From Natronorubrum sulfidifaciens JCM 14089 (GTDB lineage: Archaea; Halobacteriota; Halobacteria; Halobacteriales; Natrialbaceae), in contig NZ_AOHX01000026.1 in assembly GCF_000337735.1 (NCBI RefSeq), positions 195,160 through 249,152 on the forward strand: DNA of 53,993 nucleotides, given 5' to 3'. Positions 10,270 through 53,993 of this stretch are shown one piece after another. Under the pieces are notes generated by a model. That model saw only the letters and a program-made list of their open reading frames with translations, ran no database searches and was not told the origin of the DNA. Numbering within the stretch: position 1 is the stretch's first letter; each line of letters begins with the position of its first letter. The position numbers were made by a program, and so were the translations under genes.

Positions 10270-11229
10270 TCAGACGAGCGACTCAAGCAGCGAACACTTC
10301 CGACAGATATCGCGGGTCGTCGTCGAACCACACTCGACACAGTCCTGTAAGTCAGCGCCGTCGTCGCCGCTGAACTCGTCGGACAGGATGCCGGCGAGTT
10401 CTTCGTAGCCCGAGAGAATAGAGTGGCGCGTTCCGGGATGGTTCTCCTCGAGTCCGTAGAGGAGTTGCTGGATCTCACCGCGGTAGGCCTCACTCGAGTG
10501 GGGACACTCGGTGATGTGGGCGGGGAGGTCGTTGAGGTGTGCGTAGAGTGCGACTTCCTTTTCGGGGACGTCTCGGAGTGGTTTCGCCCGCGGGACGAAC
10601 TCGTCCTGTTCATCGCGTTCGGAGAGCGGTCCGAGGCTGGCGTCGAAGTGTTTCGCCATCTGTTCGACGTCGCCCTCGAGGAAGTTCATCAGCGCTGACT
10701 GGGCCTCGTCATCCAGGTTGTGGCCGGTCAACAGGAGATCGGCCTCGAGTTCGTCGGCATATTTCGAAAGGAGGTCACGTCGAAAGACCCCACAGTAGGC
10801 ACAGGCGGCCATGTTTTCGGGGTCGTCCTCGACGACCTCGTCCATCCGAACGCCGAACTCCTCCTCGTAGCTGACGACTTCGTGGCGGATCTCGAGGTCG
10901 TCGGTGAGGTCGAGACAGGCCTCGAGGCTCTTGTCTCGGTAGCCTTCGATACCCTCGTGGATCGTCAGGCCGACGAGTTCGATACGAGGGTCGTCCGAAA
11001 AGGTGTCGTGGAGGATCTGTGTGAGGACAACGCTGTCTTTGCCCCCGGAGAGGCCGATCACCCACGTCTGTGGGGTTTCGGGCGTCGCGTCGTGTGGGAC
11101 GAGATCGTCCCGGCGCACGCGGCGGCGCACCCGTTTTTCGACCGACTCACGAAAGTGGTCCGCACAGAGATGCGCCCCGGAGTAGGCGGCGTGCATCACT
11201 GCCTCCTCGGGACACCGATTACAGTCCAT
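10270..11229 (-). CDS. ncsA: tRNA wobble-uridine 2-thiolation protein NcsA
   Basis: An adenylating enzyme that activates the tRNA wobble uridine for 2-thiolation, using a SAMP ubiquitin-like sulfur carrier in haloarchaea. The 319-residue protein has N-terminal cysteines (CNRC, residues 3-6, then Cys22), the PP-loop SGGKDS at 61-66, a central CAYC motif, the LLTGHNLDDEAQ segment, and a C-terminal zinc motif with Cys297, 300, 309 and 312. This matches the TtuA/Ncs6/NcsA family, not the TtcA 2-thiocytidine enzymes. Confidence 0.92.
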   Translation of the reverse strand: MDCNRCPEEAVMHAAYSGAHLCADHFRESVEKRVRRRVRRDDLVPHDATPETPQTWVIGLSGGKDSVVLTQILHDTFSDDPRIELVGLTIHEGIEGYRDKSLEACLDLTDDLEIRHEVVSYEEEFGVRMDEVVEDDPENMAACAYCGVFRRDLLSKYADELEADLLLTGHNLDDEAQSALMNFLEGDVEQMAKHFDASLGPLSERDEQDEFVPRAKPLRDVPEKEVALYAHLNDLPAHITECPHSSEAYRGEIQQLLYGLEENHPGTRHSILSGYEELAGILSDEFSGDDGADLQDCVECGSTTTRDICRKCSLLESLV

Positions 11230-11299
11230 CGGCGTCAGGTAACCAACGAACGCGTATGTCCGTTTCGTCTCCCCGTCGGCTCCGTTCGGCTCGGATCAG

Positions 11300-11405
11300 A
11301 CTGTCGGACAGACGTCAGTGAGACGTCGGTCGCGAAGTCGCGGCCGTCATCGGGAGTGACGGTCGCAGTCGCGCGACCGATCGTCAAAGAGTGTTGTCCG
11401 ACAGT
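11300..11405. repeat. 106-bp dispersed element with terminal inverted repeats (copy 1)
   Basis: It lies between ncsA and the hydrolase gene. The ends are perfect 11-bp inverted repeats: ACTGTCGGACA at 11300-11310 and TGTCCGACAGT at 11395-11405. Inside, GGTCGCG (11328-11334) pairs with CGCGACC (11372-11378), and GCGGCCGTCA (11340-11349) pairs with TGACGGTCGC (11357-11366). A colinear second copy starts at 53899. It carries no ORF. It could be a MITE-like mobile remnant or a structured RNA. Confidence 0.75.
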
Positions 11406-11454
11406 ATCAAGGGCAGAGCTGGATGCCTATCGCTTGGCCACCGACGACCTCGTG

Positions 11455-12192
11455 TCAGGCTGGCACCGGCTCTTTGTCGTCCGTCGCATCGTCTTCCTCG
11501 ACGGCGTCGGCCCCGTCCTCGAGGGCAGCAAGCAGCGTGTCGATGTGGCGGTCGCGGCTCGCGGAGGAGAACAGCTCGTGACCGCCATCGTAGAGGACGA
11601 CGTGTTCGGCAGGCACCCGCTCGCCGATCGGAGCCAGACTGACGACGGGGTCGCGAAGCGAACAGAAGACGACCGCGTCGTGGTCGATTGTCAGCAACTC
11701 GGCTTGGGCTCGGCGGGTTTCCCGGACGAACGCCGGCGACACCCAACGTGGCATCGTCGCGAGCTGGTGGTCAGTTGCCTTCTCGCCGAGGGCTGTGCGG
11801 TCCATTTCACCGATCGGGAGACAGGGAAACGTCGTCGGCAGCTTCGACACCGCCGTCAGTGCCAGTTCGGGGTACACCTCGCTGTACCCCCACCACGGAC
11901 TCAGGTAGACGTGGTTGTCCGCGCCGTCTAACGCTTGGCCGATGAGTGCGCCCGCGCTGTGGCCGAGCAACTGGTACTCCTCGAGGTCGACGACGTATTC
12001 GGCGATTGGCTCGAGCCAGTCGGCTTTGAAGTCGTCGATGTTCGTGGGGAGTTCAAACGCATGCACACGGTAGCCGGCATCAGTGAGCTTCCCGATGAGC
12101 CAACTGACGTTCTCGTGGGTCCAGCGGTTGCCCCAGCCCATGACGAACACGAGCTCGTCGTCGCCGTCTTCGTTGAAGATCCGGTGTCTCAT
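11455..12192 (-). CDS. Alpha/beta-fold hydrolase
   Basis: A 245-residue soluble protein of the alpha/beta hydrolase superfamily. The nucleophile elbow GHSAGAL lies near residues 98-104. A later CSLRDPVVS supplies the probable acidic residue and DGGHELF the histidine, so the triad appears complete. The acidic tail (EEDDATDDKEPVPA) is unusual for the core fold but common in haloarchaea. The substrate cannot be deduced. A TATA-like TTTTTTATC at 12218-12226 fits a leaderless ATG at 12192. Confidence 0.85.
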   Translation of the reverse strand: MRHRIFNEDGDDELVFVMGWGNRWTHENVSWLIGKLTDAGYRVHAFELPTNIDDFKADWLEPIAEYVVDLEEYQLLGHSAGALIGQALDGADNHVYLSPWWGYSEVYPELALTAVSKLPTTFPCLPIGEMDRTALGEKATDHQLATMPRWVSPAFVRETRRAQAELLTIDHDAVVFCSLRDPVVSLAPIGERVPAEHVVLYDGGHELFSSASRDRHIDTLLAALEDGADAVEEDDATDDKEPVPA

Positions 12193-53770: not shown

Positions 53771-53898
53771 TGATAATCGGAAATTAGGTAGGCGATTCAC
53801 AATAATAAGGATTTCTAGACGTATGCTGACACGCGTATTGGCGAGATAGTGTGAAAAGCAGCAATTCCAATCGTCGACAGTCACACGTCGGAACTCAT

Positions 53899-53993
53899 AC
53901 TGCCGGACAGAAGTCAGTAAAACGCCAGTCGCGAAATCGCGGCCGTCTCCGTGGATGACGGCCGCAGTAGCGCGACCGGTCGTTGAATAGTTC
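53899..53993. repeat. 106-bp dispersed element, copy 2 (truncated by window end)
   Basis: It begins ACTGCCGGACA at 53899. GTCGCG (53928-53933) pairs with CGCGAC (53971-53976), and GCGGCCGTC (53939-53947) pairs with GACGGCCGC (53957-53965). Offsets of all four arms equal those of copy 1 with no insertion or deletion. The right terminal repeat would begin at 53994, one base outside the window. Confidence 0.75.

Follow-up and report, generated by a model that had tools for sequence, protein, structure and literature searches.

Between two genes of the window (the whole 53,993-nucleotide stretch of Natronorubrum sulfidifaciens JCM 14089 DNA analysed here) lies a short element with inverted ends, and the question raised by this locus is whether it is mobile or represents a structured-RNA family, the two options that the earlier note had set side by side. 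Our analysis identifies it as a MITE, not a structured-RNA family, and very likely one moved in trans at TNA targets within KRC-TNA-GYM, with a 1070-bp IS630-type insertion sequence (IS) as the most likely mover. The element is 108 bp long (11299–11406, + strand), so that the bounds first proposed (11300–11405) were right to one base, the real span extending one base further at each end. It is flanked by identical TCA target-site duplications (11296–11298 and 11407–11409, + strand). The family has a 13-bp terminal inverted repeat (TIR), TACTGTCGGACAG, which the window copy carries at its left end as GACTGTCGGACAG (11299–11311, + strand), with G in place of T as the outermost base, and at its right end as an inverted match to the left end (11394–11406, − strand) with one further change; the perfect 11-bp terminal inverted repeats reported earlier (ACTGTCGGACA, 11300–11310, and TGTCCGACAGT, 11395–11405) are confirmed. 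The TIR core, CTGTC-G-GACAG, is a palindrome in its own right. The element folds into a long hairpin that is much stronger than chance (−65 kcal/mol; RNA z = −7.1, with 0 of 200 shuffles equally good), with a middle stem (11322–11385, + strand; 11322–11334 pairs with 11372–11385) and an apical stem-loop (11340–11366, + strand; 11340–11350 pairs with 11356–11366), the latter being the nested inner stem described previously. The element is positioned 45 bp beyond the end of an alpha/beta-hydrolase gene (11455–12192, − strand; PF12697), as measured from the stop codon to the right duplication, and approximately 67 bp upstream of the start of a TtuA-like PP-loop gene (10270–11229, − strand; PF22082, PF01171); it is not on any stop codon.

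The genome of origin (3.46 Mb, 63 contigs) contains dozens of copies, far more than the two initially recognised: 115 TIR matches at no more than two mismatches were found, versus 3 for a reversed-pattern control, together with 48 BLAST matches of the element. Among Natronorubrum congeners the number of TIR ends per genome ranges patchily from 0 to 100, an unevenness that is the pattern of separate bursts, and copies also occur in named genomes including those of Natrialba, Natrinema, Natronococcus, Haloterrigena, Natronolimnohabitans, Salinadaptatus, and Halobellus. The interiors are of several types (75, 78/79, 95, 98/99, 106–109, 162–167, and 189 bp), which have the ends alone in common and are otherwise wholly unlike each other. 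No ORF is present, as had been noted, and elements of 75–189 bp are too short to encode a transposase; short, non-coding, and bounded by 13-bp TIRs, the family has the form of a MITE. The 162-bp elements L020, L026, and L027 of the same genome and L104 of another (G003) carry the same central insert of ~54 bp with two hairpins (TTGAGCAACCCCGTGGGGTGCGATG...GTTCTGCGG), which may be either a repeat that was captured or an element nested within.

Inspection of the flanks across haloarchaea revealed that, of 101 copies flanked by TNA, 92 have an exact 3-bp TNA duplication and the other 9 an inexact one; 28 of 129 TIR pairs are not flanked by TNA on both sides and may be decayed copies or chance pairs. 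When the joined flanks of 12 copies were queried against the genus, relatives lacking the element were found at several orthologous sites. Two congeners, G002 and G007, have an empty site for L020, with junctions that are 96% and 89% identical, respectively; it reads ACGGGTAAGCGCC or ACGAGTAAGCGC. The duplication is established as 3 bp because TAA occurs once in this empty site, compared with TAA-[162 bp]-TAA in the filled one; together with the matching N on both flanks, this rules out TA as the MITE duplication. Empty sites were also found for L005 and L009, and stretches orthologous to L027, L002, and the window copy (the last in G008 and G002) are likewise without the element, although they show greater divergence or additional indels. 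Dispersed copies with target duplications and insertion polymorphism are both characteristic of MITEs, and copy number, TIRs, exact duplications, and empty sites all uphold the mobile-element option; the similarity between copies does not belong to a longer duplicated region, the contrary case that the earlier note had raised. Three 15-bp scars (TCA-TACTGTCCGACAGTA-TCA and variants; L040 at 1500, L426 at 994, and L419 at 1030) consist of ends collapsed together with the TCA duplication intact. With a palindromic TIR core, each end also nearly repeats the other in direct orientation, and internal deletions leaving such scars could arise in this way.

All four TNA words are stop codons on one strand (TAA and TGA directly, TTA and TCA as complements), and an insertion on a stop codon can therefore regenerate it with the protein unchanged. 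In the mechanism that we propose, a transposase acting in trans, most likely from the 1070-bp haloarchaeal IS630-type (DDE_3) IS, would recognise the 13-bp TIRs, would cut out the MITE or copy it (the chemistry being presumed), and would insert it at TNA in the palindromic KRC-TNA-GYM context, where a repair step would duplicate the three TNA bases. On a stop codon, the duplicated bases would restore the stop and leave the protein unaltered, and the transcript would acquire a strong hairpin immediately past it. Gene calls came from a simple codon-usage finder for which the window served as training sequence, the element having been excised from the sequence beforehand, and the control was the share of stops among the non-CDS TNA words of the same loci. 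MITEs lie exactly on a stop codon at 28 of 89 non-CDS sites, versus 4–8% expected (p ~1e-7 to 1e-9); the enrichment is seen in the genome of origin (11/24 versus 6.3–7.8% in the control; p 6e-7 to 7e-8) and in the other genomes (17/65 versus 4.2–4.5%; p 3e-9 to 1e-9). Because the gene calls are home-made, this excess is a strong indication and not proof.

Much of the stop-codon excess may be due to selection against insertions elsewhere, and we consider it slightly the better bet that purifying selection alone, with no transposase or target-state preference, produced it, a reading that is compatible with a MITE moved by an IS630-type transposase. Just 2 of 91 MITE sites fall inside called genes, and copies of the IS show no significant stop-codon excess (1/34), as purifying selection would have it. 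Against this, the excess survives when the comparison is confined to stop codons and the 100 nt that follow them (11/19 in the genome of origin and 17/33 in the others versus 23% in the control; p = 1e-3 and 3e-4, respectively), and a control weighted by the target motif also fails to account for it.

A search of 392 genomes with an extended-end pattern identified loci with TACTCACGGACATAAGTACGTGAA beside a transposase encoded in two overlapping frames joined at an A run, and thereby a candidate partner, an IS of 1070 bp with two overlapping ORFs. Both transposase halves match NCBIfam NF033545 (transpos_IS630) above the cut-off, and the second half matches Pfam DDE_3 (PF13358; E 6e-32), the transposase type of the IS630 family; a protein search with this transposase found relatives in 134 of the 392 genomes. 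IS copies with 79% or more identity to the reference transposase are 1069–1072 bp long, with TACTGTCGGCTAAAA (or close) at the left end and TACTCACGGACATAAG at the right end; 25 of them have exact TNA duplications and nearly all others have TNA on both sides. The canonical IS630 target duplication is the 2-bp TA. As the at-least-79% clade has TNA in its place, we label it IS630-type and not a typical family member. Among the eight IS copies of at most 70% identity, six have TA on both sides (the TA group comprises L337, L387, L382, L339, L343, and L364, and the TNA group L288, L319–L335, and L369–L386).

The IS and the MITE have in common the terminal TACTGTCGG, the subterminal ACA-AAGTACGTGAA, and the TNA duplication, and their flanks give the same palindromic target logo, roughly KRC-TNA-GYM. 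The IS TIRs are TACTGTCGGCTAAAA and TACTCACGGACATAAGTACGTGAA, and most positions of the second agree with the MITE end in its extended form, TACTGTCGGACAGAAGTACGTGAA. In the MITE end, TACTGTCGG, as at the left end of the IS, is joined with ACANAAGTACGTGAA, as at its right end, and only 9 bp are in common with the IS left end; the match to this IS is strong though inexact. On these sequence likenesses, the IS630-type clade is the probable mover of the MITEs. That the same MITE is moved by a different transposase is improbable in our estimation: such a reading could draw on the lack, in the genomes searched, of any IS bounded on both sides by the exact MITE TIR and of any copy of the clade in the genome of origin, but the IS630-type clade agrees with the MITE in the core of the TIR, the bases next to it, the TNA duplication, and the wider target logo, and the 30 loci with PF01609 (IS4/IS5-type) transposases examined in nine genomes have no such TIRs. 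In the genome of origin nothing matches the IS transposase at E ≤ 1e-10, and its one DDE_3 gene is without IS-like ends; the MITEs are therefore orphans there, unless an IS copy is hidden in an assembly gap. Other candidates gave no partner either. TIR pairs 692 bp apart (G007) and 1198 bp apart (Natronolimnohabitans) flank ordinary genes and no transposase, an extended-TIR search of plasmids found MITE-like ends only and no IS, TIR matches in IMG/VR gave no IS, and more distant IS630 relatives (41–52% identity) mostly have different ends.

With the IS630-type clade as the probable mover, a broader scenario can be put forward, which we regard as tentative and rather doubtful: a haloarchaeal IS630-type lineage would have exchanged a 2-bp TA duplication for one of 3 bp, TNA, and its MITEs would actively prefer stop codons, regenerate them, and leave a strong 3′ UTR hairpin, acting as near-harmless passengers that reshape the 3′ ends of genes.

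The remaining reading, that the element is a structured non-coding or cis-regulatory RNA (e.g. a 3′-end terminator or stabiliser) with its fold under selection, is very improbable given the patchy presence, target-site duplications, and empty sites described above and the unrelated interiors of subfamilies whose ends are the same. Either strand folds very stably, and many copies lie on or shortly past stop codons and are therefore probably transcribed, as such an RNA would be, but the stability itself follows from the long imperfect inverted repeats. Among 41 aligned copies of the 106–109-bp type, 7 pairs have changes on both sides, versus 6.8 in shuffles, which is no excess of compensatory changes over chance; in the apical stem no pair is changed on both sides, the variation being one-sided. 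A slight rise in the covariation score (6 of 500 shuffles reach it) comes mostly from one TIR pair (columns 14/96), a signal that fits the symmetry of the ends, and the RNAalifold covariation term is just −0.51. A search of Rfam with the element gave no match. The change in the inner stem between the two copies that had been taken to preserve pairing involves the bases claimed (T at 11363, C at 53963), but only one partner of the pair differs (G-C versus G-U), which is not two-sided covariation.

The colinear second copy proposed in the window is real, with 81% identity over 93 bp. Its left TCA duplication is at 53895–53897 (+ strand), and it starts at 53898 (+ strand), only its left part (53898–53993) being within the window; it runs on beyond the window end (G000:C26:249057-249241), where a single N lies inside a perfect internal duplication, followed by the right TIR and the right TCA. 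The N with internal duplication is probably an assembly artefact. The same pattern is present in another copy of the genome of origin and in two other draft assemblies, and from its recurrence we take it to arise from the assembly of hairpins; the tandem “dimers” L012, L013, L224, and L241, each with one N within a perfect repeat, were accordingly rejected as likely artefacts.

Two side observations were made. A different repeat of ~80 bp, whose ends resemble CATACGG..ACTGT / ACAG..CCGTATCA, occurs approximately 20 times in the genome of origin and also in congeners; it was met in the right flank of L011 (1719–1800 of the flank query), similar motifs lie within L152 and L233, and it is probably another MITE-like family. 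In a small haloarchaeal genome (G046, GC ~54–59%), single TTATACTGTCGGACA-like motifs lie near gene starts at L101, L108, L122, and L136 without an inverted partner, and these may be chance matches, remnants, or a promoter motif.

Should the proposed explanation hold, it would put a name to the mover behind a large family of orphan repeats in haloarchaeal genomes, reveal a change of target-duplication length within one transposase family, a feature usually held to be diagnostic, and provide a simple example of a mobile element able to sit on stop codons with the protein unaltered. Such MITE families could act as natural probes for archaeal 3′-UTR function. In the open papers searched, with ISfinder names outside the comparison, we found no description of this MITE family, of an IS630-type clade with TNA duplications, or of stop-codon enrichment of MITEs.

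Small palindromic MITE derivatives are known from IS630/Tc1/mariner-type ISs, e.g. Correia/NEMIS and ERIC. The system described here resembles these in its DDE_3 transposase, its frameshifted ORFs, and its small palindromic MITEs. Unlike these TA-duplicating elements, the partner clade duplicates TNA, and its more distant haloarchaeal relatives have TA. Haloarchaeal MITEs (ISH2-type and Haloquadratum HqIRS) and the small mobile repeats (SMRs) of Haloquadratum have been described (PMC3119063), and a 2024 review lists archaeal MITEs (PMC10969869). As described in the former, ISH2-type and HqIRS MITEs are, like the window family, short, with TIRs and a target duplication, moved in trans, and similar to a transposon at the ends only, and orphans with no intact transposase are also known among them; the TIR of the window family and an IS630-type TNA duplication were not seen in the passages compared (PMC3119063). 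The same paper describes SMR-A of Haloquadratum walsbyi, which is alike in its length of ~110 bp, its prominent inverted ends, its copy number (up to 54), and its lack of a transposase, and reports that SMRs lack both a target duplication and a related transposon and that PATEs/IS605 elements are their targets (PMC3119063). In contrast to SMR-A as characterised there, the window family duplicates TNA and has ends in common with an IS630-type IS.
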